Below, one piece after another: positions 1,018 through 19,539 of a DNA stretch of 36,529 bases. Within the stretch, counting starts at the first letter, position 1. Every line of letters starts with the position of its first letter. The stretch spans positions 1 through 36,529 of the forward strand of contig JAPORH010000009.1 of assembly GCA_026710325.1 (NCBI GenBank), written 5' to 3'. Both the position numbers and the translations under genes were made by a program. The DNA is from Litoreibacter sp. (GTDB taxonomy: Bacteria > Pseudomonadota > Alphaproteobacteria > Rhodobacterales > Rhodobacteraceae). Below the pieces are notes generated by a model that was not told the origin of the DNA, did no database searches, and saw nothing but the letters and a program-made list of their open reading frames with translations.

Positions 1018-1051
1018 TTGCGGCCAATACGCAACTCTCGGGCGGCCGTGC

Positions 1052-2590: not shown

Positions 2591-3418
2591 GTGGCGAACG
2601 ACGATGACGACCTTTTCGAACCAGTTGTGTTCGAAAAAAGCTACTCTGAGATTAGAGATCTCAAGGCACGTTTTCCGGAAGAAATCGTGGCAGCTTTGGC
2701 GCGTGAAGTGCTGGCAAGGCTGGCGCAACACAGATCTGCCTTTGGTGCCACCCGTGCTCCCGTAGCCGACGAAACAATTGAAGACCTCGCCTATGCCCTG
2801 ATTGATTCCGATCAGGACGCGGCTAAACGCATGATCCTTAAAATGCGCTCCGAGGGGACCCGCGACGAGCTGCTTTATTTGCTCTTTCTTGCGAGTGCGG
2901 CGCGCAAACTGGGCGAGTGGTGGACTGAGGACAAGATCACCTTTGCGCAAGTAACCACTGGAAGTGGCCGGGTCTACGCGATTTTGCGCAGCTTAAAGCC
3001 TGTCCATTCTGCTCGCTTTGTTAAGGGTCCGCACCGCAATGCGCTCTTTGCGCAGACACCGGGCGATGACCACTCGCTCGGAATCAAGATGGCCGCAGAT
3101 TTGATGCGCGTCGACGGTTGGGACATAGACCTTGTGTTCGACCTCGATCACGATACGCTTTTGCAACGCATTGCGATGACTGATCCGCCGATTATCGGGA
3201 TATCGGCGGCTGGTGCACATGCGTTGCCCAGCCTTGCCAAACTTGTTCTTGCGATCAGGGTTTGGTCGCCCAGCACACTTATCCTTGTCAGCGGGAACGT
3301 TGTCGAAACATCGCGCGAGACAGTTGCGCTTATGGGTGTTGACGCGATGACTTCTAATATTGATACCGCCCGGGAAGAGCTCGAACGGCTCTGGTCCGTC
3401 GTAGAAAGCAAGTCATAA
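2591..3418 (+). CDS. Second cobalamin-binding AerR/PpaA-like regulator
   Basis: A 275-residue paralogue of the first gene. It shares the central signature (F-A-Q-V-T-x-G-S-G-R, then I-L-R-S-L-K-P) and a B12-binding half with D-D-H-S-L-G, a complete DxHxxG motif with the candidate axial His at residue 161, followed by S-G-N-V near 238 where cobalamin domains usually have a glycine pair. The GTG start is supported by GAGAGGA (2576-2582) eight bases upstream. Unlike the first paralogue it has an acidic N-terminus and a full DxHxxG rather than A-Q-H-x-x-G, so the two may differ in cobalamin affinity or light response. It probably modulates PpsR, but it could serve another regulator. Overall identity to the first protein looks low outside the signature. 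Confidence 0.8.
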   Translation: MANDDDDLFEPVVFEKSYSEIRDLKARFPEEIVAALAREVLARLAQHRSAFGATRAPVADETIEDLAYALIDSDQDAAKRMILKMRSEGTRDELLYLLFLASAARKLGEWWTEDKITFAQVTTGSGRVYAILRSLKPVHSARFVKGPHRNALFAQTPGDDHSLGIKMAADLMRVDGWDIDLVFDLDHDTLLQRIAMTDPPIIGISAAGAHALPSLAKLVLAIRVWSPSTLILVSGNVVETSRETVALMGVDAMTSNIDTAREELERLWSVVESKS

Positions 3419-5801: not shown

Positions 5802-6485
5802 ATGCGCCTGGGAAAACGGATTTTTGACTGTGTCTGCGCGACTGCGTTGGCGCTTTTGATCCTTCCCTGGATTGGCTGGATCGCATTTCGTGTCTGGCGG
5901 CAAGGCGACGGACCAATCTTGTATCGCGCGGAGCGGATGCGCGGGCTGGACCGGCCTTTTACACTCTATAAATTCCGAACCATGAGCCATCACTCGCGTG
6001 AAGAAATTGGTGTGACGGGCGGTGACAAGATCGACCGTATCACCCCCTATGGGGCAAAGCTTCGCAGGCGCCATCTTGATGAATTGCCGCAGCTATGGAA
6101 CGTCATCAGGGGTGACATTAGCTTCGTGGGCCCGCGCCCGCCGTTACGCGAATTTACAGAGCGCTTTCCGGAGGTTTATGGCCAAATTTTGAATGACCGC
6201 CCCGGCGTTACAGGACTTGCCACTTTGCTCTACAACAACACTGAAGAAACGCTGCTTGCACAATGTGGCACACCTGAGCAGACTGACGAGACTTATTGCA
6301 CGCGTTGCATTCCTGCCAAAGCGCGGCTTGATCTGTTTTACCAACAAAAAGCCAGCTTCGGACTCGATCTCTGGATCATCGGTACCACCTTGCGACAGAT
6401 TTTCAGCAAAGAGCCCTCATCTCGCCAGGTGCAAAAGCGCAAAAGCAGCGCACGCGCTCCTGTCCCTTTGTTAACCTCCAGCTGA
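5802..6485 (+). CDS. PglC-like undecaprenyl-phosphate phosphoglycosyl transferase
   Basis: A 227-residue monotopic phosphoglycosyl transferase (bacterial sugar transferase family). It moves a sugar-1-phosphate from a UDP-sugar to undecaprenyl phosphate, the first membrane step of repeat-unit assembly. Seen: an N-terminal hydrophobic segment (about 10-30) of the re-entrant type, K-F-R-T-M at 57-61, the catalytic Asp-Glu dyad D93-E94 in L-D-E-L-P-Q-L-W-N, and G-P-R-P-P at 110-114. It is the minimal PglC-like form without the extra N-terminal helices of WbaP/WcaJ. It follows the epimerase gene by three bases. It is probably the committed initiating transferase for the polymer made by this locus. 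Confidence 0.9.
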   Translation: MRLGKRIFDCVCATALALLILPWIGWIAFRVWRQGDGPILYRAERMRGLDRPFTLYKFRTMSHHSREEIGVTGGDKIDRITPYGAKLRRRHLDELPQLWNVIRGDISFVGPRPPLREFTERFPEVYGQILNDRPGVTGLATLLYNNTEETLLAQCGTPEQTDETYCTRCIPAKARLDLFYQQKASFGLDLWIIGTTLRQIFSKEPSSRQVQKRKSSARAPVPLLTSS

Positions 6486-6573: not shown

Positions 6574-6834
6574 ATGGATAAATTTTCAAACTTCCCCACG
6601 ACCCCGATCTCTCCGGCGCGTAACGGGGAGCAGGTTTCCCCGAGCGACAGCACTGATTTGAGCCAAGTCAGCCGCGCTTTGTACATCGGCCAAGGCGGCG
6701 ATCTGAATGTGGTCATGGCCGACGGCGCGACCATCTTGTTCGAGGCCGTTCCCGGCGGCTCGCTGCTGCCGGTGCGCGCCGAACGTGTAACGGCGTCGGG
6801 GACATCGGCCAGCGGCATCGTCGCGCTCTGGTAG
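6574..6834 (+). CDS. ghsA: GTA head-spike base protein (RcGTA Rcc01079 family)
   Basis: An 86-residue protein resembling the spike base protein family typified by rcc01079 of the R. capsulatus gene transfer agent. There the spike base joins the capsid vertex to a fibre that binds the cell capsule. The diagnostic core is R-A-L-Y-I-G-x-G-G-D-L-x-V-V-M-A-D-G near residues 34-52, then G-S-L-L-P-V-R-A-x-R-V and the C-terminal I-V-A-L-W. The ATG has AGGA (6565-6568) at good spacing. A strong plus-strand terminator follows at 6866-6897, so this is probably a single-gene unit. The likely fibre partner is 3.8 kb away on the other strand (10626-12857). Similar small proteins occur in prophages, but no other phage gene is present here. 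The family call is from remembered sequence features. Confidence 0.75.
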   Translation: MDKFSNFPTTPISPARNGEQVSPSDSTDLSQVSRALYIGQGGDLNVVMADGATILFEAVPGGSLLPVRAERVTASGTSASGIVALW

Positions 6835-6840
6835 CAGGTG

Positions 6841-8061
6841 CTACTTCACCGCTAAGCTTTCTTTCAAACCTGCCGCCTGACCCGTGGCAGGTTTTTTCTG
6901 ATCCGCAACGACATCCCGGAACAATCGTTCGAGAGACTTTTCATAGAGTTGCAGCCGCGCAAGCCCGTTGAGCTGCGCCTCTCGTGTCTGAGCTGCAAGA
7001 CTGTCGCGTTGTTCAAAGCCATCCATCACCCGCGCGACGATTTCGTCATGGCTGTCAGCGCAGCAATCCGCGACGTGTCCATATCCCAAGGCCCCAAACA
7101 GTCCTGAAAATTTCCGGCTATAGGCCAGGGGAACAACCGCCACGCCGCTGGAAAACGCCGCGATGCAGGAATGCATGCGCGCGCCGGTAAAGAAGGACAT
7201 TTCCGCTATATAGCCTTTTGCCTCGGACGGTGTTCCGAATGCTGGCGCGCAAATCACATCACGATATTTTGATGCGAAGTGCCGTATCGCCGCAACATCA
7301 TCCTCGATAGGCATTTGTGGGCTTATGACATGTGGGATCAGGTGCAGCTCCGGCCGCTCCGGATGGGCAAGGAAGCGTTCGATAAGCTCGCAGCACATCG
7401 CTTCGTAGTCGATATCCATGCCAAATTGATTGCGCCCGTTATACCCGCCCGACTTCAAGAGGCCTGAGATGTTCAATCCGACACGCGGCCTATCACCATC
7501 CATCAGACAGGGCTCGCTAGGCAGCCTTAGCGCGACATCGCTGGCGACCAAAACCTCTCTTTTCAAACCGAGCCCGTGGAGGTGTTTCGCCGAAGCCTCG
7601 TCGCGCGCGAAGATCAGTTCGGATCTGTCCAAAATCCGCTTTGCAAAGAACTTGCTCACCGTGCTGGAAAACGGCCCATAGGTCTGCGGTGCGTGGACCA
7701 AAGACGTTCCAGCCGCGAGGCAAGCCAGTTTCATCCAAAGCATACGACGCAGGCGCTTCGGCCCGTAAATATCGGCAAAACTATCACCGGCACCGATATC
7801 CAGCACGACATCAGCCGCGCGCATATGGCGAAAAATCCCGTTCGGGTGCAGAAGGTCACGGCCCGTGATTGTGACGATGTCCAAATCATCGCCTGAAACG
7901 CAAGGCGTTCCGCGATCGGCCCAATCCAAAATAGTAATCTTGAGCTTTTGGCGGAGCTGTTTGGCGATGGTGCGTAATGTATCGATCTGTGCGGCCGTGA
8001 GCGCGCCGACGCCGAGGTTGTTGGAGCGGGTCGCGTGCATGATGAGACAAATTTTAAGCAT
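6841..8061 (-). CDS. Polysaccharide pyruvyl transferase family protein
   Basis: A 406-residue member of the polysaccharide pyruvyl transferase family (CsaB/WcaK-like), which adds pyruvate ketals from phosphoenolpyruvate to sugars of surface polymers. Typical elements are N-N-L-G-V-G-A-L near residue 15, D-I-G-A-G-D-S-F-A-D in the N-terminal half, H-A-P-Q-T-Y-G-P-F near 143, F-A-R-D-E-A-S, and T-G-A-R-M-H-S-C-I-A-A-F in the C-terminal domain, where the Arg and His are the conserved pair. It starts 42 bp after an FrhB-like gene, so the two form one minus-strand unit. Its 3' coding end contains the terminator of the convergent spike base gene. The chemistry on this polymer is inferred from family. 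Confidence 0.85.
   Translation of the reverse strand: MLKICLIMHATRSNNLGVGALTAAQIDTLRTIAKQLRQKLKITILDWADRGTPCVSGDDLDIVTITGRDLLHPNGIFRHMRAADVVLDIGAGDSFADIYGPKRLRRMLWMKLACLAAGTSLVHAPQTYGPFSSTVSKFFAKRILDRSELIFARDEASAKHLHGLGLKREVLVASDVALRLPSEPCLMDGDRPRVGLNISGLLKSGGYNGRNQFGMDIDYEAMCCELIERFLAHPERPELHLIPHVISPQMPIEDDVAAIRHFASKYRDVICAPAFGTPSEAKGYIAEMSFFTGARMHSCIAAFSSGVAVVPLAYSRKFSGLFGALGYGHVADCCADSHDEIVARVMDGFEQRDSLAAQTREAQLNGLARLQLYEKSLERLFRDVVADQKKPATGQAAGLKESLAVK
6866..6897 (+). terminator. Rho-independent terminator of ghsA inside a convergent gene
   Basis: AAACCTGCC (6866-6874) and GGCAGGTTT (6886-6894) form a perfect nine-pair stem with an 11-base loop, followed on the plus strand by TTTTTT (6892-6897). 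It lies 31 bp after the spike base stop and within the last codons of the convergent pyruvyl transferase gene. It should end the ghsA transcript; the minus-strand reading has no T-run. Confidence 0.85.
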
Positions 8062-8103: not shown

Positions 8104-9330
8104 TTATGCCTTACCTGAGCGTCGTTGCGCAGCACGCCGCATTGAAACTGCTATCACGCGCAGCATACGTGGCAGCCCAAGTGCACGCGAATTTTGCCAA
8201 ATGCCGAGCTGCCGATATCGCGGTGCGGGAAGCCCGCCAAGAACGCGCCCGATCAGTCGTGCGAGCAGTTCTTGGCGGCGTCGCAACTGACCTGGCTGCA
8301 TAGCCGCCACCGCATCAATATCGCTTGTGCGCAGAACCAACGCGCCCCCCTCAGCCGCCCCATGCGCGATCCGAAGGCCCAGCCGGGACCGCGCCAAAAT
8401 CAAGCTGCGCCCGTCGCGTTCTTCAAACTCGGGATAGCCTTCAGAATTGACCGCCCAACTGTCGGCGAAGACAATATCCGCCTCCAATCCGATCCCATCT
8501 GCGCAGATCCGACAGCGGGGCTGGACGTGTTTGGACAGCACATCGCCCCAGCTTTCCGAATAGCTGAGGCTACGGGACGCGCCCTGTTTCGTTCTGGCCT
8601 CGCTTCGCCCGGGCCAGCCACGTCCGCGATACCGAAACTCGGAGACGTCTTCAGGCCGCGTACCGAGCACGCGCAACAAAGTCTCCGCGCCTCGTTGGGA
8701 GGGCACGCCTGCGCAGAAAAACGCCAGTTTCACTGGAAATATGTCATCTACGCGCTTGTCGACCCGAGCCCAATTCCTCAGACCTGCCACATCACAGGGC
8801 TTTCCCACGAAGGCTAGGCGCTCCCCTTTTTCCAACAAACCAGGAACCTGCAAAAGCGGCGCCGATGGCGCGTAACGGGACGCGGCTTGCGCCAGCAAGT
8901 CCTCCTTTGTTCTGCTAATCACGGTGCGATTGCCGATCGGGTTGTCCGGGTCGGCAGACGTGCTAAGCACGCCATCCACTTCGCCTGTCTCCAAAAGCCA
9001 AGCCAAGACACCGGTCAGTGCCCCGCCTGACGCGCCTTCGAAGCGGATCGCCGGGTCGCTGGCCCAACCCTCGTAAAGCTTTCGGTAGGACCCCCAGACC
9101 GGGTGGTTTTGGTCTCCAAATTGGGTGGGGATTTGTTGCTGCCCGGGGCAAATCGCAGCGATGTTTTTCTGCGCGCGTCGCTGCAAGCGGGCGCGCGTCG
9201 TGGGTCGCAGGAAGCCATCCTCACCTAGGCCAAAAGACAGCGATTTTGGCGCAAGCGCCGCACAAGCACCGCAGCCTGCGCAAAGGTCGGCGGCAACAAT
9301 TTTTTCAGTGATTTCCCTCATGTGGGTCAC
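8104..9330 (-). CDS. FrhB/FdhB-like Fe-S flavoprotein, polysaccharide-locus type
   Basis: A 408-residue protein of the coenzyme F420 hydrogenase/dehydrogenase beta-subunit family. The N-terminus has a ferredoxin-like cluster motif, C17-x2-C20-x2-C23 with C60 in C-P-G. The catalytic-type domain includes F-E-G-A-S-G-G-A-L-T near residue 98, G-K-P-C-D-V-A-G-L and the C-terminal family region. Such proteins recur beside pyruvyl transferases and glycosyltransferases in bacteria not known to make F420, so hydrogenase activity is unlikely; a redox or sugar-modifying step is possible. The GTG start is backed by AGGAGG five bases upstream on the minus strand. It lies directly upstream of the pyruvyl transferase gene. 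Domain family is clear; function is not. Confidence 0.8.
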   Translation of the reverse strand: MTHMREITEKIVAADLCAGCGACAALAPKSLSFGLGEDGFLRPTTRARLQRRAQKNIAAICPGQQQIPTQFGDQNHPVWGSYRKLYEGWASDPAIRFEGASGGALTGVLAWLLETGEVDGVLSTSADPDNPIGNRTVISRTKEDLLAQAASRYAPSAPLLQVPGLLEKGERLAFVGKPCDVAGLRNWARVDKRVDDIFPVKLAFFCAGVPSQRGAETLLRVLGTRPEDVSEFRYRGRGWPGRSEARTKQGASRSLSYSESWGDVLSKHVQPRCRICADGIGLEADIVFADSWAVNSEGYPEFEERDGRSLILARSRLGLRIAHGAAEGGALVLRTSDIDAVAAMQPGQLRRRQELLARLIGRVLGGLPAPRYRQLGIWQNSRALGLPRMLRVIAVSMRRAAQRRSGKA

Positions 9331-9387: not shown

Positions 9388-10629
9388 ATGGTCATGGTCT
9401 CAGACACCTCGCTCGACCAGCGCGCCAAGCTGCAACAGCTTGCGACCCTGCTTTCGGGCAACAGCGCGATTGCCGCGCTCACCTTGCTGCGCAACATTTT
9501 CGCGGCGCGCATGATTGGCGTTGAACAATTCGGTATCGCGGCTGCGCTCGCAATTGTTGCAACCGGGATCGAGATGGCCACAAATTTGGGATTGCCACAG
9601 ATGCTGGTGCGTGACGCTCGTGGCGCCACCCCGCGTTTCCAAGCCTCACTGCATTTCGTTCAGCTGATACGCGGAGCTCTCGCCGCAGGCATGCTTTACC
9701 TTTTGGCACCGTATATCGCGGCTTTTTTTCAGATGGAGGAGGTGGCTTGGGCATTCCGCGTGCTCGCCTTCATGCCTCTGGCCAATAGTCTCCTGCACCT
9801 TGACGCATTTCGATTTCAACGTTCGGGTCGTTTTGGGCCGTCTATCGTGATTGGTCTGGGGCCGGCGCTGCTTGCGCTGATGCTCATATGGCCGCTCTTC
9901 GAGACTTATGGCGATTTCAGGGTGCTACTCTTTGCCAGCTTCGTTCAATGCATCGGCACCGTCATCCTGTCCCATCTCATAGCCGAGCAAAGGTTCAAGC
10001 TTGTGGTGGCGCGCAGGCATTGGCCCGATGTCTGGACATTTGGTGGTCCTATGGCCTTGAACGGCTTGCTGCTTCTATTTGTGTTTCATGGCGAGAAAAT
10101 CCTTGTGGCCCATCTGAGCGGGCCCGCTGATTTGGCCGTCATCGCAATGGGATTCACTCTCACACTGACGCCTGCGCTTATCCTTGGTCGAAGCTTGCAG
10201 ACCTACGCCTTGCCAAAGCTTTCGCAGACGACGGATCAGACGGCGTTCGAGATTGCGGCCAACCGGCTGATGAAGCTGTGTCTCGCAGTCGCCATCCTCG
10301 CGACCTCGGCCTTATGCGCTTTCAGCCCTTTGGTAACCGTTTTGCTCGGATCAGATTTTTCGGCGCTTCAGGGCCTGTTTCCGCTGCTCGCTATTCTACA
10401 CGGTCTGCGCATAGCACGCTCGGGGCCGACCATTGCCGCATTGGCTAAGGGTCACAGCCTGAACGCAGTCTGGGGCAACCTTCCCCGGATCGCGGCCTTG
10501 CCTTTGGGCTATCTCTGGTTGTCGAGCAGCGGCGGCCTAACAGGGTTAATCTGGATTGCACTTGCCGCGGAAGCGGCGGGTCTGGCGCTGTCCTATGTGC
10601 GACTGCGCCAGACCATGAGAGTCCTTTAG
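9388..10629 (+). CDS. Wzx-like polysaccharide/oligosaccharide flippase
   Basis: A 413-residue integral membrane protein with about 12 hydrophobic segments and the N-terminal pattern of the oligosaccharide flippase family (L-L-S-G-N-S-A-I-A-A-L-T-L-L-R-N, then A-R-M-I-G-V-E-Q-F-G-I-A-A-A). Such proteins move lipid-linked repeat units across the inner membrane. ATG 9388 or 9394 could be the start; neither has a strong ribosome binding site. It is transcribed away from the FrhB-like gene, from which 57 bp separate it. Its stop codon overlaps the stop of the convergent spike-fibre gene by two bases (10627-10628). With the polymerase-like gene at 13.6 kb it suggests a Wzx/Wzy-type assembly route. 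Confidence 0.88.
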   Translation: MVMVSDTSLDQRAKLQQLATLLSGNSAIAALTLLRNIFAARMIGVEQFGIAAALAIVATGIEMATNLGLPQMLVRDARGATPRFQASLHFVQLIRGALAAGMLYLLAPYIAAFFQMEEVAWAFRVLAFMPLANSLLHLDAFRFQRSGRFGPSIVIGLGPALLALMLIWPLFETYGDFRVLLFASFVQCIGTVILSHLIAEQRFKLVVARRHWPDVWTFGGPMALNGLLLLFVFHGEKILVAHLSGPADLAVIAMGFTLTLTPALILGRSLQTYALPKLSQTTDQTAFEIAANRLMKLCLAVAILATSALCAFSPLVTVLLGSDFSALQGLFPLLAILHGLRIARSGPTIAALAKGHSLNAVWGNLPRIAALPLGYLWLSSSGGLTGLIWIALAAEAAGLALSYVRLRQTMRVL

Positions 10630-12857
10630 GTCGCGTCAGATCCAAGTTTCCAAGGATCGGCATTCACAATTTCTGCTGGGCCGACATACTCTTTGTAAGG
10701 CGTGCTGCCCGGCAGGGTGCCATCGCCAAGCGCTTCCTTCCATACTGCGATACGGGTCACATTTGCCACCACCTGATTTGCGCCGTTGAAGGTTGCCATC
10801 AGGTTGAGCGCACGGTTGCTCGGCAAGGTGGGGGCGGCAGAGGTAAAGCTTTCGTCCAGCACAAGGCTGCCATCAACCCAGATCCGCGCAAATCCCGCAG
10901 GCAGGTCTATTGCCAGGCGTATGTCTGCCTGAACCCCGGTGATGATTGTCCCGGACCCCGTCTGCGCATTGTCGACATGAACGACCCCGCCAGTATCGCG
11001 CACGCGCAGCCGCAAGCGCCCATTTGGCAGGATTTCAAGTCGAATGTAGTTACCCGTGGTCGTCGCTAAAATGACCGATCCAGAGCTCGGCAAGCTGGGT
11101 TGCAGGTCGAACTGGAATTGCATCGCGTCGACACCTACGCCCAAGGTGTCCGGGTCATAGAAATAGGGCCCGGTTGCGCTGGTGGTGAACCCGCCCGAGG
11201 GCGCGGTCAGGGTATTGGCCAGAACAGCCGCGTCGGGCAGTGGTCGAACAGGAACGCCGTCAATGCCCGGCAATCCGTGATCTACAATGGGAAGGTTCAG
11301 ATAGGTCCCTGCAAAATGATCTTCGGGGAATTTGATCATACCCGTGGCACCACCTTCCCCAAATCGGATCACGTCGCTGGAAACGAAGCTACCTGCATTT
11401 GGAAAAATGCGAACGCGACCTGACACGATCTCCACCCGCTCCGCAGGCTGTCCGTTGATCTGCCACCCCATTACATCCGTCCAATGGGGCTGCGCACCTC
11501 CCAAAGCGGATAAACCCCGTTTCAGGCGTGGTGTGGTGATCTCACCAGCGTCGGACCAAACTTCGACGAAAGCACCGCTGGGCTCCCAGAAGGCTTGGTC
11601 GAAGACTGGCATCTCCCAGCTTGTGAGTCCGCTCGATTGCAAGATCGCATGCGCCATCAAACGTCCCCACATAGGCGAGCCATCGTCTGAGTTGCCGGAC
11701 GGGTGGGTCACATCCGTCCAACTGCCCGCGCCATCGTCAAACCCGTTCTGATAAGTGAGCGGCTCCAATCCAAGCGGTAGAAACAGCCCATCCGCATTTG
11801 GGTTCACCACCATCTGCCGCCAGCTTTCGCGGGCGCGTTCCTTGTTGAGCAGGTTGTTCTCGGTCGTCCCTCCCAGAAGAACCGTCGCGTTCTGCATGTC
11901 CGCGCCGATGTCAAATTTATGGGGGCCGAAGGCGACCCAACGGGTATGGGCCGGATCGTAGAGTTCGCCGAACCAGTGGTCGGCCTGATAGCTGGAGCTC
12001 GTCCCAAAACTGATCGTCGTCGGGAATGAGACGGGCGTGCCATCAGCCTCTTTGCCGGTGAAGAGGGGAAACAAACCCTCCTCATAGTTGCTCGAAAAGC
12101 TGCCCGGTGTTGCGAACCAAGACACTGATGGCATCCCCACGTGTTGGCCATCGGCGGTCGCGAAAGCATGCAACGCGGCGTCATTGGTCCAAAGGCGTGA
12201 GGGCTCGCTATCATCAACCAAGTCGCGAAACCCGGTACCAGAGACAGCTTGGAACACGAGCGCAAACTTCTCCCCAGGGCGCTCCGCCATGAATACATTG
12301 GCCATCGCCGCGAGGGCTGCAGTATGCGGGTCAGCATTGCTCAGATGCTTCAACTGGGGTCCGCCATCAAACCACATGGCCTGCACGGAGTCGTCGCCCA
12401 ACAAAGGCTCAGCCGGAATTTGATCGTAGAAGGTGGAGAAAATCCGCACGACCTCCGACTGGCCCCAAAGGGCGATCACATGGCTGACGCCAAAGCGGTT
12501 GGGGGTGGTCGCGCGCGTGACATGCTCGGACTGGATGCGAGCCTCAATGCGCAGCCAACGCGTGTCGCGCGCAACCGTTAAGCTGCCGGACCAATTGCCG
12601 CCCCCATCAATCACGCCGAAACCGCTCCAATCCTGTGGCGCGCCGCCCTCAGGCAGAAGCCGGATTTCAACGGTTTCGCCGGGCGTGCCTGTACCACTAA
12701 CATTGACCACGGCCTCCGCCCGCCCAAAGGCTGCGCCGCTGTCAAACAACGTCATATCGCGGGAAAAGTCGTTGATCGTGATCTCGGTCAGTGGAACGAA
12801 AATTCCGCCCGTTGGGCGGTTCGTCGCGGCCAACGGCAGGCCAAGCATTGTGATCAT
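10626..12857 (-). CDS. ghsB: GTA head-spike fibre-like protein with SGNH-esterase features
   Basis: A 743-residue protein without a signal peptide, resembling GhsB (rcc01080), the RcGTA head-spike fibre needed to bind the polysaccharide capsule. An N-terminal beta-rich module (about 25-120) is followed by a hydrolase-like domain. It has the nucleophile-type motif G132-Q133-S134 after a hydrophobic strand, as in sialate O-acetylesterase/CE6 enzymes, and D382-x-x-H385-P followed by a helix M-W-G-R-L-M-A-H-A, as in block V of SGNH hydrolases. The C-terminal region (about 560-715) looks like a concanavalin/LamG-type carbohydrate-binding sandwich. AAGGTGA lies five bases before the ATG. The gene is monocistronic, between flippase and acyltransferase genes, in the same locus as the spike base gene. 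The GhsB assignment rests on remembered family features and context; esterase activity is inferred. Confidence 0.65.
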   Translation of the reverse strand: MITMLGLPLAATNRPTGGIFVPLTEITINDFSRDMTLFDSGAAFGRAEAVVNVSGTGTPGETVEIRLLPEGGAPQDWSGFGVIDGGGNWSGSLTVARDTRWLRIEARIQSEHVTRATTPNRFGVSHVIALWGQSEVVRIFSTFYDQIPAEPLLGDDSVQAMWFDGGPQLKHLSNADPHTAALAAMANVFMAERPGEKFALVFQAVSGTGFRDLVDDSEPSRLWTNDAALHAFATADGQHVGMPSVSWFATPGSFSSNYEEGLFPLFTGKEADGTPVSFPTTISFGTSSSYQADHWFGELYDPAHTRWVAFGPHKFDIGADMQNATVLLGGTTENNLLNKERARESWRQMVVNPNADGLFLPLGLEPLTYQNGFDDGAGSWTDVTHPSGNSDDGSPMWGRLMAHAILQSSGLTSWEMPVFDQAFWEPSGAFVEVWSDAGEITTPRLKRGLSALGGAQPHWTDVMGWQINGQPAERVEIVSGRVRIFPNAGSFVSSDVIRFGEGGATGMIKFPEDHFAGTYLNLPIVDHGLPGIDGVPVRPLPDAAVLANTLTAPSGGFTTSATGPYFYDPDTLGVGVDAMQFQFDLQPSLPSSGSVILATTTGNYIRLEILPNGRLRLRVRDTGGVVHVDNAQTGSGTIITGVQADIRLAIDLPAGFARIWVDGSLVLDESFTSAAPTLPSNRALNLMATFNGANQVVANVTRIAVWKEALGDGTLPGSTPYKEYVGPAEIVNADPWKLGSDAT

Positions 12858-13051: not shown

Positions 13052-13564
13052 TTAGGTCAGTCCTGCTGCGGCCAGCTCGTGTTCGCGCAGATCGGCGTCC
13101 GGAAGCCTGCCAAAAGGACCGGCTGAAATCCCTTGGCGCACGACCTTTGCCGGGTTGCCCGCGACAATGCAATCGGGTGGCACGTCTTTAGTCACGACGG
13201 CGCCCGCGGCCACAATAGAGCCGTCGCCAATGCGCACCCCCGGCAAGATCATGCTGCGCGCGCCGATAAAACAATTTCGCCCGATCCAGGTATGCACATA
13301 AAGCCCGCGGGTCCGGTCGTGGGTCAGCACCATGGACTGCAACGCGACATAGCTCTGCGCGCCGATATGCACGCCAATTGGAAAGGTGCGGTCAAGCCGG
13401 GCCGACATCGAAATCTGGGAGGTGGGGGCGATATCCATGCCGTAAACGCCGCTCAACCAAAGCCGACGGGCTTGTACCAAAACCTCGCGTAGCAGACGCA
13501 GGCGGTTTAAGCCGCGCCTGCGCGCTTTGCGAAAGGGTTGGGTGTCCAAGGGCAGGTCGGTCAT
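13052..13564 (-). CDS. Left-handed beta-helix O-acetyltransferase (WcaF/NodL type)
   Basis: A 170-residue hexapeptide-repeat acyltransferase, a trimeric acetyl-CoA enzyme class that O-acetylates sugars. A basic helical N-terminus precedes the repeats (about 50-140). The catalytic-type histidine region is V-L-T-H-D-R, and the C-terminal end is [22 protein letters not shown], the hallmark of the maltose/galactoside/WcaF acetyltransferase group. ATG 13564 is used; an in-frame TTG lies three codons earlier, and neither has a clear ribosome binding site. It diverges from the polymerase-like gene across a region with inverted repeats. It is one of two such enzymes in the island and may acetylate the polymer bound by the spike protein (inference). 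Confidence 0.85.
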
Positions 13565-13599
13565 GCGCGTCAAGGCTCAGCAGTTTCAATAGCCCCTGA

Positions 13600-13638
13600 T
13601 AACCGTTGATTTCTTTACAGAATGATAACGGTTAACCG
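13600..13638. promoter_or_regulatory. Inverted repeats between divergent acyltransferase and polymerase genes
   Basis: TAACCGTT (13600-13607) is the exact inverse of AACGGTTA (13627-13634), and the right half belongs to a perfect 10-bp palindrome CGGTTAACCG (13629-13638). These overlap the first codons of the polymerase frame if it starts at 13622, but lie upstream of the alternative ATG at 13652. They could form an operator for a dimeric regulator of the divergent pair. TTAACC is also a CtrA half-site. Confidence 0.4.
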
Positions 13639-14920
13639 CCAATTTACCGATATGTTCGCCCGTTTTGCCTTGCCCGTTCCGGTTCTTTTCTACTTGTTGG
13701 TAGTCATCCTCCCCGTGCGTTTCATGGCTGGGCCACTGCAAATGACCAGTGTCCGGCTGTATATGGCGCTCCTTTTGGTGCCGCTTCTGATCTCGCTCTT
13801 CCGGCATCGCCCCAATGCGACTGATCTTCTGTTACTGCTCTTCGTGCCTTGGGCCGGGATCGCAATGTGGGTGAATACACCGGGTCAGGCGATCGAGCAT
13901 GCTGGCGTGATGATGCTTGAGATGTTTTGCGGCTATATGCTCGCTCGGCGCTACATCACAAATGCCGCGCAATTTGTTGCGCTCATAAAAGCGGTGTTGC
14001 TTCTTGTGCTGCTCTGCTTTCCGCTCGCGATCTACGAGACCCTGACCGGCGCGCCAATTGCCATCAATGCAATCCGCGCTATTCCCGGCATCAGCAGCGT
14101 CGAGGTCGCCGATATCGAAAAGCGGCTTGGCTTTGAAAGGGTTCAGGGCCTCTTCGCGCATCCAATTCATTTTGGCCTGTTCTGCGCCTCTGCCGTCGCA
14201 CTTGGGTTTGTGGGGTTGTCAAAAGCGATGTCCCCGATGGTACGTTGGACTGCGACCGCGCTGGCTGTCGCAACGGCGTTTCTGGCCCTGTCCAGCGGTG
14301 CCATTCTGTCGGTCATGATCCAACTTTTTCTCATTCTCTGGGCGGCGCTATTTGCCGCACATAAGCAGAGATGGTGGTGGCTCATGGCCGCAATCGCTGC
14401 AGCTTACATCTTCATAGATTTTGTTTCTAATCGCGGCCCGTTTCAGGTCTTCCTCAGCTACGCGACCTATTCCGCCCATAATGCCTACTGGCGCACGCTT
14501 ATTTTCGAATGGGGCATGGTAAATGTATGGGCTAATCCGGTATTTGGCCTCGGACTTGAGGACTGGGTTCGCCCGCATTTCATGTATTCTGGCAGTATGG
14601 ACAATTTCTGGCTGGCGCAGGCAGTGCGCTACGGGCTGCCCGGTTTTGCCATTCTCGCTTCAGCATGGTGTCTCGCGGTGTACCGGGTGGCTGCATCGCA
14701 GGCACCGCAACACCTGAAAATGGCGTGGCTCTATTGCATGATCGGGCTCACATTCACGCTCTGTACCGTACATGTCTGGACGGCCATTTTTTCCTATTGC
14801 TTCTTCCTGCTGGGCGCGGGCCAATGGATGGCCGCCGGTCGCGGCGCGCGCTCTAAACCCGCGCAACTGGGCTTTTCGCGTGGGCTTCAGCCTCGATTCC
14901 AACGTCCCGCCTTCGCATGA
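13622..14920 (+). CDS. Wzy/WaaL-like polysaccharide polymerase or ligase
   Basis: A polytopic membrane protein of up to 432 residues with about 10-12 hydrophobic segments and a long soluble loop (about 300-340) containing F-G-L-G-L-E-D-W. This is the pattern of the O-antigen polymerase/ligase superfamily (Wzy_C-type), which joins repeat units in the periplasm. Sequence is too divergent to tell polymerase from ligase; with a flippase and a Wzz-like protein nearby, polymerase is more likely. The start is uncertain: ATG 13622 lacks a ribosome binding site and overlaps inverted repeats, and ATG 13652, just before the first membrane segment, is an alternative. Its stop overlaps the start of the GT2 gene (ATGA), so the two are coupled. 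Confidence 0.8.
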   Translation: MITVNRQFTDMFARFALPVPVLFYLLVVILPVRFMAGPLQMTSVRLYMALLLVPLLISLFRHRPNATDLLLLLFVPWAGIAMWVNTPGQAIEHAGVMMLEMFCGYMLARRYITNAAQFVALIKAVLLLVLLCFPLAIYETLTGAPIAINAIRAIPGISSVEVADIEKRLGFERVQGLFAHPIHFGLFCASAVALGFVGLSKAMSPMVRWTATALAVATAFLALSSGAILSVMIQLFLILWAALFAAHKQRWWWLMAAIAAAYIFIDFVSNRGPFQVFLSYATYSAHNAYWRTLIFEWGMVNVWANPVFGLGLEDWVRPHFMYSGSMDNFWLAQAVRYGLPGFAILASAWCLAVYRVAASQAPQHLKMAWLYCMIGLTFTLCTVHVWTAIFSYCFFLLGAGQWMAAGRGARSKPAQLGFSRGLQPRFQRPAFA

Positions 14921-15891
14921 CTCTCGGTGTGGTCATCGTCACCTATGCGGCCGAGGAGGTCATCGCGTCTTGTCTGGAAACGCTCGTTTGTAGTCCCCAG
15001 GCCATGCGCGTGGTGGTGGTCGATAACGCCTCGCCGGATGGCACGGTTGCGGCCATTCGCGACTGGCAGCGTGCCGGGGCAACACTCAATAATTTGCCAT
15101 TCGCGACCCGGGTTAAGAGCACGCGTGAGGCGCGCTCCCAGGTCGAGCTGCTCCTTTCACTGCAAAACGGTGGCTTCGCCGCAGGTGTCAATCTGGGTTT
15201 AGGCGCGTTGTTGAAGGACAAATCAATAGATCGTTTCTGGATCCTTAATCCGGACACGCTGGTACCACCGCAAACACCTGTCTCCATTGCAAATGCGCCG
15301 GGCGGGTTCGCGCTTATGGGGTGCCGGTTGCTTTATGCAGACCCGCCGCACAGTATCCAGATCGACGCTGGCACCGTGAACAGATGGACAGGGGTCACGG
15401 GTAACCTAAACCTCGGGGCTGCGTCCTCTGCGCCGCTTCCATCCGCGGAGGAGGCTGATTTTATCTCTGGGGCCAGCATGGTGGCCTCCCGCGCTTTCAT
15501 TGAGACCGCAGGCCTAATGCCGGAGGAATATTTTTTGTATTATGAGGAGGTTGCCTGGGCCATGCGCCGCGGGCCGTTGCCTTTGGCGCTGTGCCCGGCG
15601 GCTTCGGTTTTCCATCGCGCGGGCACCGCCATAGGCTCCCCAACTCTGGACAGCGTGGCATCGCCTTTTTCGGTCTATTACAAACACAGATCCCGGATGA
15701 TGTATTTGCAGCGCCATCATCCCGCCGCGATGATCGCGGGCCTTTTCTATGGTTTGGCGAAGGCAGCGCAATTTGCGATGTCAGGTCATTCACCCCAAGC
15801 AAGCGCCCTGATGCGGGCGATCTTGGGGCGAGAACTTTCACCCGATATAGCTGCGCAAAGTCGTGACCAAACCCTCGAGCGCCGGGCCTGA
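14917..15891 (+). CDS. Family 2 glycosyltransferase
   Basis: A 324-residue GT-A-fold glycosyltransferase of the rhamnosyltransferase-like GT2 group, extending lipid-linked repeat units on the cytoplasmic face. Seen: G-V-V-I-V-T-Y at the N-terminus, V-V-V-D-N-A-S-P-D-G-T near 33-43, N-G-G-F-A-A-G-V-N-L-G near 85-95, the metal-site-like L-N-P-D-T-L near 112, and F-L-Y-Y-E-E-V-A-W-A-M-R-R-G near 205, where the acidic pair fits the catalytic base region. The donor sugar cannot be read from the sequence. The start overlaps the polymerase stop by four bases. The 3' end overlaps the convergent pssE-like gene by 54 bp, so the two transcripts have complementary tails. Confidence 0.88.
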   Translation: MTLGVVIVTYAAEEVIASCLETLVCSPQAMRVVVVDNASPDGTVAAIRDWQRAGATLNNLPFATRVKSTREARSQVELLLSLQNGGFAAGVNLGLGALLKDKSIDRFWILNPDTLVPPQTPVSIANAPGGFALMGCRLLYADPPHSIQIDAGTVNRWTGVTGNLNLGAASSAPLPSAEEADFISGASMVASRAFIETAGLMPEEYFLYYEEVAWAMRRGPLPLALCPAASVFHRAGTAIGSPTLDSVASPFSVYYKHRSRMMYLQRHHPAAMIAGLFYGLAKAAQFAMSGHSPQASALMRAILGRELSPDIAAQSRDQTLERRA

Positions 15892-16308
15892 CACCGAATG
15901 TGTGTCCGGCGCAGGCAAATCGCTTTTCACCAACTCCGCAAGTTTGGCCGTGTCCCAAACACCCGTGATCCCGGGGCGGCCCAATAGCTGGCGCACGGTT
16001 CCCTCTTGGTGATCATTGCGGTGTTCGCCAAGGTTGGCCCGTCGCGGTACCAAAATAACGGGCACCTGCGCCTGCCGGGCCGCCAGAACGGTCCCGATCC
16101 CGGCATGGGCCACCACGACGCGCGCCTGCTCGATGACGTCGCTATAGCGTTCGCTGTTCATATAGGGTTCGACAATCAGATTTTGGTAATCCGCCAGATC
16201 GTCGCAGGTCTGAGCAATGACAGGTTCGCAAATTTGCCCTGCGATCCGGTTCATCTCGCGCACAAGTCTCGGGAAGGGCAGCTGCGTGCCAACGGTCACG
16301 AAGATCAC
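15838..16308 (-). CDS. PssE/Alg13-like glycosyltransferase catalytic subunit
   Basis: A 156-residue C-terminal half of a split GT28-type glycosyltransferase. Alg13/PssE-like proteins bind the nucleotide sugar and work with a membrane-anchored Alg14/PssD partner. Evidence: F-V-T-V-G-T at the start, V-A-H-A-G-I-G-T-V-L, and P-R-R-A-N-L-G-E-H-R-N-D-H-Q, all strongly conserved. The frame is open further upstream, but GTG 16308 is the start: it overlaps the pssD-like stop by four bases (GTGA), AGGAG lies seven bases upstream, and the protein then begins at the conserved strand. In rhizobia PssD/PssE add glucuronic acid to the exopolysaccharide precursor; the sugar here is not known. The 3' end overlaps the GT2 gene on the other strand. 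Confidence 0.88.
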   Translation of the reverse strand: MIFVTVGTQLPFPRLVREMNRIAGQICEPVIAQTCDDLADYQNLIVEPYMNSERYSDVIEQARVVVAHAGIGTVLAARQAQVPVILVPRRANLGEHRNDHQEGTVRQLLGRPGITGVWDTAKLAELVKSDLPAPDTHSVSGPALEGLVTTLRSYIG

Positions 16309-16736
16309 AGCACGGCTCCTGCGTAGATCGCGCCGGTTTTCCGCGATACGTCGGGCCATTGGGTCAGCCATAGACCGGCAAAGGGGCGCGACAAACGGCC
16401 CGACAGGGACATGCTTTCTGTGTTGGCGATGGAGTCGATCCAGACTGTCCGCGCACGGAAGAGCCGCGCAATCACCAAAGCGACAAGCCCCGGCAGCGCG
16501 CCGGTCGAAACCACAACATCCGGACGCAAACGCCACATGATCATGATCATCTGAAACGCCACCACGAAGCCGCGCCACCATTCTGTTCGGCTACACTCGC
16601 TTATGCAAAATTCGGCAAGTTCGGGATCAGTGGACACGAAGCGCACGTCATATTGCGAAAAGGCACCGGCCATAGCGTTGAGCTGGCGCCAATGGCCGCC
16701 TTTTGAGGCGACCGCGAGCACGGTAGGCGTGGTCAT
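16305..16736 (-). CDS. PssD/Alg14-like membrane anchor of a split glycosyltransferase
   Basis: A 143-residue Alg14/PssD-type subunit that recruits the catalytic PssE/Alg13-like partner to the membrane and helps bind the lipid acceptor. Diagnostic: S-K-G-G-H-W-R-Q-L near residue 11, a hydrophobic segment about 58-68, P-D-V-V-V-S-T-G-A-L-P-G near 72-83, and I-D-S-I-A-N-T-E-S near 99, as in family members. GGAGGAG precedes the ATG at good spacing on the minus strand. Its stop overlaps the pssE-like start by four bases. It is transcribed divergently from the Wzz-like unit, across a 250-bp region containing a CtrA-type box. Confidence 0.88.
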   Translation of the reverse strand: MTTPTVLAVASKGGHWRQLNAMAGAFSQYDVRFVSTDPELAEFCISECSRTEWWRGFVVAFQMIMIMWRLRPDVVVSTGALPGLVALVIARLFRARTVWIDSIANTESMSLSGRLSRPFAGLWLTQWPDVSRKTGAIYAGAVL

Positions 16737-16922: not shown

Positions 16923-16991
16923 ATGCTGACAAACAGCGACGCGGAGAAAGGCATCGAAGCCATGATCAAGCCAAAATGGAGCGCGGAATGA
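16923..16991 (+). CDS. Possible 22-residue leader peptide coupled to the Wzz-like gene
   Basis: A 22-codon frame begins at ATG 16923, six bases after GAGGA (16912-16916), and its TGA overlaps the ATG of the Wzz-like gene (ATGA at 16988-16991). This is the geometry of translational coupling. The peptide is hydrophilic, with charged residues and one Trp near the end, and no recognisable family. It could be an upstream control frame of the chain-length/kinase operon. An artefact is possible given its small size, but the ribosome binding site and the exact overlap are better than expected by chance. Confidence 0.4.
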   Translation: MLTNSDAEKGIEAMIKPKWSAE

Positions 16992-18172
16992 GCGCATCGT
17001 TTCGGTATTGGCGCTGGAGAGTTTTGCGACAGGTGCCGCTCGCGGTATTTGTGGCGGTGCTCGGCGGCGCCGCGACCTATTATGGTAATGACCTGCTGCC
17101 GGATCGCTATACCGCCTCAACGCATCTCTTGGTCGAAACACCTTCCGTCGCAAATGACACCGCCCTCGCCGCAGGGCCCTTTCATCATACCGCGCAGCTG
17201 CAAAGCATCGAGGCGCGGTTGATGACGAATGATCGGCTGACATCCCTGGCAAATCAGTTGGGGCGCGGCGCTGAACCCAAAGAGCTGCGGGACGCCATTT
17301 CGTTTGACACTTCAAGCGGTCGCGGGAAACCCACGAGCCTCGTGGTATCCGTGACCGATGCCGACAGCGCTTTTGCTGCGGCAGCTGCCAATACACTCGC
17401 GGAACAAGTTCTTGCCGAGCATAATCTATCCAAGACAAACAGGGCCGAAAGCGCGTTGATCTTTTTCCGCGAAGAGGTCGCGGAACAGAAAAGCCGCCTT
17501 GATCAGGCCTTTGCGGCCCTTCTTCAGTTCAAAGATGAAAATGCAGGCGCCTTGCCTGAGGATGCATCCCGCTACCATGATCAACGCAGGGCGCTTTTGC
17601 TTCAACGCGCCTCCAAAGGGTTGTCCGTTGCCAGCGACCCGTTTCGCGAACAGCTCGAATTGGAGCTGCGGACGGCATCGACGCTATATTCCGCTGACCA
17701 TCCGCGCATTCGTGGATTGGAGGCTCAATTGGCCCAATCAGAGCCGCTTGCGCAATCTGACGAACCCGCGCAACAAATCTCGGGTGACATCACGCAGATC
17801 GATGCGGCGCTTGCCCTGATTCCAGCAAATGGGCTGCGATTGAATGCGCTGCAGGATGCCCATGAGCTGGAACGCAAACTCTACGAAGAGGCCGTCTCCC
17901 GCCTAGAGGATGCTGCAATTGCGGAACGGATCGCTCTTACCGCGCGCGGGGACCGTATCACTATTGTCGAAGCCGCGATCCCGCCCGAACTGCCCTCCGG
18001 CCCGCGCGACAAGATTATTCTGGCGCTCGGTGCTTTGGTCTCAGTAGCGCTTGGTTTGAGCGTTGCGATTTTGCGCATGCGCGCCGATGCGGTTCTGCGC
18101 CGCCCGCAGGATTTGATGAACAGCCTCAAAATACAGCCCTACGCCGTAATCCCGCGCCCCAGATACGCCTAA
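16988..18172 (+). CDS. Wzz/GNVR-type polysaccharide chain-length regulator
   Basis: A 394-residue polysaccharide co-polymerase. A transmembrane segment lies near residues 15-32, a long periplasmic region with coiled-coil helices spans about 140-310, and a proline-containing second membrane segment (P-S-G-P-R-D-K, then a hydrophobic run) lies near 335-360, leaving a short cytoplasmic tail. Wzz proteins set the chain length of polymer made by Wzy. ATG 16988 is used: GGAG (16978-16981) lies six bases upstream, whereas ATG 16976 has no site. The kinase-like gene follows by 13 bp, like CpsC/CpsD or Wzc-split pairs. No outer-membrane exporter (Wza) or ABC exporter is seen in the window. Confidence 0.85.
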   Translation: MSASFRYWRWRVLRQVPLAVFVAVLGGAATYYGNDLLPDRYTASTHLLVETPSVANDTALAAGPFHHTAQLQSIEARLMTNDRLTSLANQLGRGAEPKELRDAISFDTSSGRGKPTSLVVSVTDADSAFAAAAANTLAEQVLAEHNLSKTNRAESALIFFREEVAEQKSRLDQAFAALLQFKDENAGALPEDASRYHDQRRALLLQRASKGLSVASDPFREQLELELRTASTLYSADHPRIRGLEAQLAQSEPLAQSDEPAQQISGDITQIDAALALIPANGLRLNALQDAHELERKLYEEAVSRLEDAAIAERIALTARGDRITIVEAAIPPELPSGPRDKIILALGALVSVALGLSVAILRMRADAVLRRPQDLMNSLKIQPYAVIPRPRYA

Positions 18173-18185
18173 AATTGGATATCAA

Positions 18186-18968
18186 ATGAGCCAACTTGCC
18201 GAAAAACCAACCATCGACAACGCCCGCCCTGTCGAATTCACCTATAGCCCCGACGACTACGAAGTCGCGATGGACCCTGAGCGGGCCTGGATGCGTCTCA
18301 ATCAGGTGTCGATCCCGGACCACGCCGCAATCAATGATGCGCAAGACCCGTCCGTGGCGCGTGCTGTCAGCCTGCTCAAAAGCCGCTTGCTGCGTCAGAC
18401 ACGTCAAAGCGCCATCAAGCGGCTGGCCATCACCGCGCCCACGCAGGAGTGCTCCGCGCAGGAGCTTTGCGCGCATTTGGCCTTGAGCCTTGCCCGTCAA
18501 CCCGACCTGAAAATCATGCTGTTCGATTTCGACCTCCGGGACCCGAAGCTTTCAAGCTATTTCGGGCTGGCCTCCGTGTCGCCGATCTGGAGCGCGCTTG
18601 CGGGCACGCGGCGCGAATTCGACAGCTCCTGCCTAAAAGTCGGCCACAACCTTGGGTTAAGCCTGTCGACCCAGCCAAGTGAAAACCCGGCTGAAAGCTT
18701 GGCCACGCTGCGCGCCCTCAACTTGATAGATGAAATCGACCGCGATTTCGCGCCGGACCTCATGCTGTTCAATCTTCCGCCGGTGCTCAGCACCGAGGAC
18801 GCTGTCAGCGCGGCCGGGCTCTACGATGCAGCGCTTCTTGTGGCGCGCGCGGATCATACGACGCGCAGCCAGATCGACCGAACCGAAACTCTGATCGCTG
18901 AACAAAAGCCCTGTATCGGGGTGGTTTTGACTCATTGCCGCTTCGTAGATGACCATGCAACTGGTTGA
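18186..18968 (+). CDS. BY-kinase/CpsD-like protein with degenerate ATP site
   Basis: A 260-residue protein with the layout of the cytoplasmic half of bacterial tyrosine kinases (CpsD/CapB/Wzc group) but altered nucleotide motifs. The Walker A position, normally S-P-x-x-G-E-G-K-S/T, reads A-P-T-Q-E-C-S-A-Q (residues 84-92) with no Gly-Lys-Thr. Walker A' is kept as L-F-D-F-D-L-R-D-P (112-120). The Walker B region, normally D-T-P-P, reads L-F-N-L-P-P (194-199), so the Asp is Asn. The C-terminus lacks a tyrosine cluster. It is therefore probably a non-catalytic partner of the Wzz-like protein rather than a kinase. It lies 13 bp after wzz, and its end overlaps the next gene by 20 bp. Family assignment is by fold pattern and position. 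Confidence 0.75.
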   Translation: MSQLAEKPTIDNARPVEFTYSPDDYEVAMDPERAWMRLNQVSIPDHAAINDAQDPSVARAVSLLKSRLLRQTRQSAIKRLAITAPTQECSAQELCAHLALSLARQPDLKIMLFDFDLRDPKLSSYFGLASVSPIWSALAGTRREFDSSCLKVGHNLGLSLSTQPSENPAESLATLRALNLIDEIDRDFAPDLMLFNLPPVLSTEDAVSAAGLYDAALLVARADHTTRSQIDRTETLIAEQKPCIGVVLTHCRFVDDHATG

Positions 18969-19539
18969 AGCAAGGGCAACCTTACCCGAACGCCCGAAGA
19001 CAATGCGTGGGAAGCCCGCACGGGTCTTGCGCGCCGCCGTGTCTGTCTGCGACCCACGGGCCTGGCTTCATCTGTTTCGGATCGTGAACTACTACAATCA
19101 CACTCATGTCGCGCCGCGCCGAGCGCTGAGCCATGGTGCTGGAACCGCCATCAGCCCTACAGCCTCCTTCGCCAACGCCAAGAATATCCGGCTCGGGCAG
19201 GGCTCGCATATCGGCGCCCATTGCGCGCTTTGGGCGGGCGAAAACAGCGGAAAAATTATCGCGGGCGACAATCTGCTGCTTGGACCAAATGTGATGATCA
19301 CCGCGGCAAGTTACCGGTTCAACGCAGGCAGCCCCGTAACCAAGCAACCCATGAAAGAAGCGACCGTCTTCATCGGTCGCGATGTTTGGATTGGCACAAA
19401 CGCCGTTATCCTCGCCGGCGCTCGGATCGGCGATGGCGCAATCATTGGGGCAGGCTCTGTCATCCGTGGGTCTGTCGCGTCCAATGCGGTGATCGCGGGT
19501 CCGGCCTCTGAGCAGATAAACACCCGCGAAACTCCCTAG
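18949..19539 (+). CDS. Second hexapeptide-repeat acyltransferase of the island
   Basis: A 196-residue left-handed beta-helix acyltransferase. After a basic N-terminal region, hexapeptide repeats run from about residue 65 to 185, with A-H-C-A-L-W, G-P-N-V-M-I-T-A-A-S-Y-R-F, I-G-R-D-V-W-I-G-T-N-A-V-I-L-A-G and G-A-G-S-V-I. The usual active-site H (as in L-T-H-D of the other paralogue) is not evident at the same place, where A-S-Y-R is found, so activity is less certain. The start overlaps the kinase-like gene by 20 bp; ATG 18955 is an alternative. It closes the wzz unit; gpmI follows after 69 bp. Acetylation of the polysaccharide is inferred from family and location. Confidence 0.8.
   Translation: MTMQLVEARATLPERPKTMRGKPARVLRAAVSVCDPRAWLHLFRIVNYYNHTHVAPRRALSHGAGTAISPTASFANAKNIRLGQGSHIGAHCALWAGENSGKIIAGDNLLLGPNVMITAASYRFNAGSPVTKQPMKEATVFIGRDVWIGTNAVILAGARIGDGAIIGAGSVIRGSVASNAVIAGPASEQINTRETP

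Follow-up and report, generated by a model that had tools for sequence, protein, structure and literature searches.

The 36,529-nucleotide contig JAPORH010000009.1 of Litoreibacter sp. (here called the window; contig C154 of a 4.19 Mb genome) raises the question of what a large spike-fibre protein is doing among polysaccharide genes, and whether it is a binder or an enzyme. An earlier note, made from the sequence alone, took this protein for the spike of a gene transfer agent (GTA), with an SGNH-like catalytic set and a lectin-like C-terminal region, and suggested that it is a carbohydrate esterase; that interpretation as a whole is partly supported. The reading preferred here, with a probability of roughly 0.64, is that the protein is a head-spike fibre like that of RcGTA, the agent of R. 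capsulatus, in which a lectin domain is joined to a divergent, sialate-O-acetylesterase-type SGNH hydrolase, and that it would deacetylate the cell's own coat polysaccharide; we infer the catalysis, the substrate and the effect on gene transfer. The gene and its parts are as follows.

10626..12857, minus strand: spike fibre protein with an SGNH-like domain, 743 amino acids (open reading frame and homologues)
12828..12857, minus strand: residues 1-10, MITMLGLPLA, a putative peptide anchoring the fibre in the spike-base pentamer (compared with orthologues and the RcGTA anchor)
12522..12785, minus strand: N-terminal beta-sandwich, residues ~25-112 (model strands; aligns with the domain preceding GQSN in a SASA protein)
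11622..12506, minus strand: SGNH-like catalytic domain, residues ~118-412, with inferred boundaries (block order and conservation)
12456..12461, minus strand: Gln133-Ser134, putative oxyanion Gln and nucleophile, block I (both 22/22)
12237..12239, minus strand: Gly207, block II (22/22)
11964..11978, minus strand: His294 and Glu298, conserved motif (His 22/22; position 298 Glu in 19, Asp in 3)
11703..11714, minus strand: Asp382-x-x-His385, block V (His 22/22, Asp 20/22)
10629..11192, minus strand: C-terminal concanavalin-like lectin domain, residues ~556-743 (Pfam, model, Foldseek)

The open reading frame with Ser134 and D382-x-x-H385 was confirmed, and re-reading of the codons gave G132-Q133-S134 and D382-V-T-H385 around the catalytic-type residues. 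The lectin-like C-terminal part is real, by profile and by model. Laminin_G_3 is matched at residues 589-711 (E 0.0012, under the Pfam cut-off) and in 6/22 members of the fibre family (best 1.9e-7). Residues ~560-743 are the best-modelled region in AlphaFold2, with 10-residue means of the predicted local distance difference test (pLDDT) mostly at 86-96, and Foldseek with the whole-protein model returned lectin-type matches (pentraxin, LamG and CBM40). Lectin-domain matches also dominated the Foldseek search of viral structures; a viral match named as an SGNH esterase-domain phage protein was not counted there (rank 35, root-mean-square deviation 25).

The catalytic set was judged by its conservation. 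Homologues were drawn from genome contigs of 84,980 species, which gave 12 loci, and from 248 genomes of the taxonomic family, 11 of them matching, the window's own included. The alignment holds the fibre and 21 relatives, whose identities go as low as 25%; the partial matches L022, L023, L025, L026 and L027 were excluded. L025-L027 are one stretch of contig C5 of genome G010 (G010:C5:255328-258977), a second, diverged fibre-like region in pieces, and the same genome has an intact copy. The bare motif carries little weight, since GQS followed by DxxH 100-500 residues on occurs in 28 of the 413 proteins of at least 400 amino acids in the fetched loci (fibre-family members included); as a marker by itself it was rejected, its frequency among these proteins being not above chance. 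Its significance comes from the homologues, which keep the residues. The alignment has 25 invariant columns, among them Gln133, Ser134, Gly207, His294 and His385, and only S134, H294 and H385 are invariant among the 53 Ser and 15 His of the protein. Ser134 and His385, which the earlier note had proposed to check in homologues, are thus kept in 22/22, while Asp382 is Asp in 20/22 and Ser in L019 and L021. Gly132 is replaced by Glu in 2/22, with Gln133 still invariant there. Blocks I (134), II (207) and V (382-385) are conserved and stand in the same order as in SGNH hydrolases. The triad of Ser134, Asp382 and His385 did not hold up as the full set, since Gln133, Gly207 and His294 are equally invariant and Asp382 is less conserved.

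This pattern recalls the SASA enzymes, which are described as having no block III Asn and as using the Gln beside the catalytic Ser for the oxyanion hole; the (H)QGE motif is said to hold the oxyanion Gln, and the block V Asp to be absent from EcNanS (PMC9487903). The description suits both the invariant Gln133 and the two Asp-less members, because SASA enzymes use Gln and sometimes do without the block V Asp. Against a profile built from 11 SASA domains, the fibre family scored 32.5 in hhalign (probability 19%), compared with a maximum of 21.1 for 60 column shuffles and 14.5 for the reverse. L114, a full-length SASA protein, gave 37.7 in an alignment that covers the beta-sandwich, GQS and block II; 1/240 other proteins scored higher, through the lectin region. 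The SASA protein L118 scored 34.2. Foldseek of the first AlphaFold2 model against the PDB found the CE20 acetylesterases 7kmm and 9ega and the sialate O-acetylesterase (SIAE) 8f9o at E ~1e-6, matches that are weak because the catalytic core had no confident model. An SGNH identity of the fibre body is likely, with support from conservation, weak profile support and Foldseek matches of low confidence, and the conserved pattern fits the SASA-type SGNH acetylesterases. The SGNH-like set of the earlier note therefore stands in its conservation and block order, with weak SASA profile support and low-confidence CE20/SIAE matches, and is incomplete as a set.

Assignment to a GTA spike rests on genome context. 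A base gene lies close by:

6574..6834, plus strand: spike base protein of the Rcc01079 family, 86 amino acids (NF048002, E 3.8e-31; PDB 6tb9, E 8.9e-11)

It is the only spike-base copy found in the genome and lies 3.8 kb from the fibre gene. In the RcGTA structure a single fibre is described per base pentamer, held through residues 2-10, IALGLGLGL (PMC7296036); the fibre start MITMLGLPLA and the orthologue N-termini MITALGLGLA and MITLLGLGLG resemble this peptide. Anchor-like starts occur in 20/153 base-adjacent open reading frames versus 41/1184 others (p 4.4e-6). They also occur in the next gene at three of five phage base loci (RcapNL, Pben1 and P8625; the other two are without). GTA_TIM was found on contigs C17 and C189 of the window's genome, and C17 carries an RcGTA-like cluster with terminase, portal, protease, capsid, adaptor, tape measure and tail proteins. 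The fibre gene itself was rejected as part of a GTA cluster, its neighbours being a polysaccharide cluster. Fibre relatives occur in 21 other genomes, of which 20 have the base and 20 have GTA_TIM; the sole one without either is G258, where the relative lies inside a 1445-residue frame. The base as such is found in 46/149 sampled genomes of the taxonomic family (45/148 without the window's own). Distances were measured for 18 fibre-base pairs sharing a contig: 7 are 18-213 bp apart (e.g. 81, 81, 85, 86, 93 and 121), 10 are 1.6-6.1 kb apart, and the last is 91 kb apart. In R. capsulatus the head-spike fibre is described to bind the capsule, and its gene to adjoin capsule genes (PMC10218006). 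That the protein is a GTA-type spike, as the earlier note held, is supported by the anchor, the nearby base gene and the GTA cluster of the same genome.

The best hint on the substrate is the gene next to that of the fibre. A predicted acetyltransferase gene (13052-13573) lies on the strand of the fibre gene, 194 bp upstream, within the following polysaccharide locus.

5802..6485, plus strand: initiating sugar-phosphate transferase (PF02397)
6841..8061, minus strand: polysaccharide pyruvyl transferase (PF04230)
8104..9330, minus strand: FrhB/FdhB-like protein (PF04432, PF04422)
9388..10629, plus strand: polysaccharide flippase (Wzx-like), convergent with the fibre gene (PF13440)
13052..13573, minus strand: hexapeptide-repeat (left-handed beta-helix) acetyltransferase (Pfam Hexapep; PDB maltose acetyltransferase, 7e-16)
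13622..14920, plus strand: O-antigen ligase/polymerase-like protein, Wzy_C (PF04932, barely past the cut-off)
14917..15891, plus strand: glycosyltransferase family 2 (PF00535)
15838..16581, minus strand: glycosyltransferase, PssE/WelK-like (PF04101)
16976..18172, plus strand: polysaccharide chain-length determinant
18186..18968, plus strand: polysaccharide tyrosine autokinase
18949..19539, plus strand: second hexapeptide-type acetyltransferase, end of the polysaccharide locus

The acetyltransferase matches sugar and other O-acetyltransferases in NCBIfam, under the cut-offs. Close homologues (phmmer E <=6.7e-48) occur in 14/22 fibre loci and in 0/48 other base loci, and 13/14 lie upstream on the fibre strand; the exception, that of L094, is on the opposite strand, and its contig matches the fibre only in part. 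Fisher's exact test gave 1.7e-9, and 2.9e-6 (8/16 vs 0/48) when the window and five Litoreibacter relatives were excluded, values that overstate independence because the loci share ancestry and differ in length. Weaker hexapeptide matches are found at two non-fibre loci (L043, L049) and at one fibre locus (L044). CysE1 of R. capsulatus was rejected as a counterpart by its description as a serine acetyltransferase beside the RcGTA core cluster (PMC9552610). In four cases a stand-alone SGNH-type gene seemingly lies between acetyltransferase and spike genes: with DGVHPDP endings in L010 (6558-7796) and L011 (6280-7239), and with GDSL_2 matches at G010:C11:87443-87922 and G107:C20:37933-38394. The contig starts with a PpsR/CrtJ-type photosynthesis regulator (980-2455, plus strand), adjoined by a gene with a weak CarH/corrinoid-like match (2591-3418, plus strand).

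In the proposed mechanism, the first ten residues of the fibre would plug into the base pentamer encoded 3.8 kb away. The body would consist of the beta-sandwich, the divergent SGNH hydrolase and a concanavalin-like lectin, the last binding the capsule or exopolysaccharide that the surrounding genes would make for the cell itself. Ser134 and His385 with Asp382 may cleave O-acetyl esters, with Gln133 and Gly207 as the putative oxyanion hole; the esters would probably be added by the acetyltransferase encoded just upstream. Removal of acetyl groups could enable the particle to attach, detach and pass through the coat on its way to the outer membrane.

Several results weigh against this reading. 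No Asn is found in the invariant or nearly invariant columns of the alignment for block III, a lack shared with SASA enzymes, and the (H)QGE block III of SASA enzymes was not recognised there; that His294 and Glu/Asp298 may substitute for it is a guess from the alignment. No Pfam SGNH family, SASA (PF03629) included, matched the fibre or the 22 members at E 0.1, nor did any SGNH family of NCBIfam match the fibre protein. Among solved structures, neither the protein by itself nor its profile found a relative (best E values 0.25-0.37, to unrelated proteins). In hhalign, 60 block shuffles that preserved GQS scored up to 32.3 against the real 32.5, the probabilities of the SASA comparisons are just 19-22%, and of 7 distinct SASA proteins aligned one at a time, 5 stayed at background level with scores of 14.6-24.7. 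The whole-protein AlphaFold2 model (A1 alignment, 13 sequences) has a mean pLDDT of 60 and ~30 over residues 204-418, and the SGNH domain modelled alone (A4 alignment, 14 sequences) has 36.5. The template-modelling scores by query of the CE20/SIAE matches are weak (0.15-0.17), the core being modelled with low confidence. As for context, unrelated genes separate fibre from base over the 3.8 kb, the 91 kb gap between base and fibre relative is that of G219, and 8/22 fibre loci are without an acetyltransferase homologue.

Some of these results would be expected if the SGNH-like fold were only a carbohydrate-binding scaffold and the spike bound the capsule without chemistry. The RcGTA head spike is indeed described as a binder (PMC10218006, PMC7296036), a lectin domain is present, block III is not recognisable, and Asp382 is lost in two distant relatives. 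However, Ser134 and His385 are kept in 22/22 down to 25% identity, Ser134 being the one invariant Ser among 53. This explanation is unlikely because a protein that only binds would hardly be expected to keep the nucleophile in every line.

It is less probable still that the gene encodes an enzyme which matures the polysaccharide while secreted or bound to the cell (an esterase, or a transacylase acting with the acetyltransferase) rather than a part of the particle. The position in a polysaccharide cluster directly downstream of the acetyltransferase gene would suit such an enzyme, as would the distance of the base, or its place on another contig, in G219 and some others, and the stand-alone GDSL genes beside the fibre in G010 and G107. 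Nevertheless, the N-terminus is an anchor-like LGLGL peptide with no evident signal peptide, as judged by eye, and the base is found in 20/21 genomes, less than 250 bp away in 7/18 measured pairs.

The least probable explanation, a prophage or phage remnant in the capsule locus instead of a GTA part, can draw on the spike base also being found in phages (90 phage records) and on fibre relatives in the viral contig L099 and in L012, whose genome is without base and GTA_TIM. However, no phage structural genes were seen among the 18 of the window's 35 listed open reading frames that were scanned, each against one library or more. Base and fibre occur by themselves within polysaccharide loci, a single base and an RcGTA-like cluster are present in the genome, and the same split arrangement is described for RcGTA (PMC10218006). 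The fibre protein had no match in PHROGs; the fibre, L020, L016 and the L055 fibre had none in 50,697 phage records; and a sequence search of viral contigs with the fibre protein and L020 gave none. Flavobacterium phages account for 72 of the 90 records with a spike base. The same SGNH module is observed with other N-termini at L099 (2917-3975) and in L012, and may for that reason move between phage and GTA fibres.

The preferred reading of this one fibre as an esterase can be placed beside other spikes. Base loci were fetched for 49/53 base places, plus the window, and 16 base-adjacent candidate fibres were scanned with Pfam. SASA was found in the independent fibres of L055 (2e-12) and L061 (8.8e-7), and GDSL_2 in those of L079 (2.3e-9) and L048 (1e-6, under the cut-off); the rest gave one LamG protein, one Gly-rich protein and nothing past E 0.01 save a weak beta-helix match. 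In L086 (genome G074) a SASA frame begins at the end of the base gene. SGNH-type fibres are thus found in 9/46 base-bearing genomes, 4/9 with the family of the window's fibre (G000, G010, G103 and G107), the others with SASA (G050, G053 and G074) or GDSL (G001 and G067). A further fibre relative is encoded on plasmid pSC52_6 of Rhodobacteraceae SC52 (L127; CP049034.1, 6007-8406), with the start MLIGLGLGM, GQSE and DWSHP; a mannose-1-phosphate guanylyltransferase gene lies near it. It is tentatively proposed, as a possibility on the doubtful side, that Rhodobacterales GTA head spikes are exchangeable polysaccharide esterases, with one anchor and varied SGNH modules matched to the coat, which prefer kin in DNA delivery. 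Each SGNH module (that of the window's family, SASA or GDSL) would be kept beside polysaccharide genes, often with the acetyltransferase adding the very groups that the module removes; because module and polysaccharide genes would be kept at the same locus, particle and coat would stay matched and DNA would go preferentially to kin.

RcGTA head spikes have so far been described as capsule binders, and the esterase reading goes past the earlier note, where the adjoining acetyltransferase gene was not noticed. If esterase spikes are indeed encoded beside the coat acetylase, a particle and its receptor would be passed on together as a matching set, which would offer a simple route to kin-directed gene exchange, coat acetylation would be a testable control of GTA uptake, and the acetyl-shaving known from phage tail fibres would extend to GTA heads. 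The full-text literature search found no SGNH esterase reported for GTA head spikes (the 2016 head-spike paper of Westbye was outside its scope), and a broader search had no gene-transfer-agent paper among the matches listed.

With respect to known systems, the protein resembles the SASA or sialate O-acetylesterase branch (PF03629; CE6, CE20, SIAE) in having a beta-sandwich followed by GQS, a block II Gly-Thr and a DxxH-Pro, and in the Gln beside Ser, which is invariant in the fibre family. It differs from that branch in being without a Pfam match or the (H)QGE block III, in conserving the His294/Glu298 motif instead, and in carrying a particle anchor and a lectin domain on the same chain. Phage receptor-binding SGNH proteins, such as gp63.1 of coliphage G7C and the tail fibres of Klebsiella prophages, have been proposed or shown to strip O-acetyl groups from surface polysaccharides (PMC13123978). 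The fibre likewise appears to be a receptor-binding protein with an SGNH domain, although here it would belong to a GTA head spike, encoded in the polysaccharide locus of the host. The TspA tailspike of RcGTA is described as an enzyme that acts on the extracellular matrix, degrades biofilm and aids transfer (PMC13420450). It shares with the fibre the nature of a GTA surface enzyme, which is predicted here, whereas TspA sits at the baseplate and the available text of its paper mentions neither esterase nor SGNH (PMC13420450). There is also a likeness to the RcGTA head spike itself (Rcc01079 base and Rcc01080 fibre, GhsA/GhsB), with a base homologue of 6tb9, an anchor-like N-terminus, and a fibre gene beside capsule-type genes with the GTA cluster elsewhere in the genome. 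By description, Rcc01080 is a lectin-like binder of 325 amino acids (PMC7296036), and the present fibre is set apart from it by its 743 amino acids and its SGNH-like domain.

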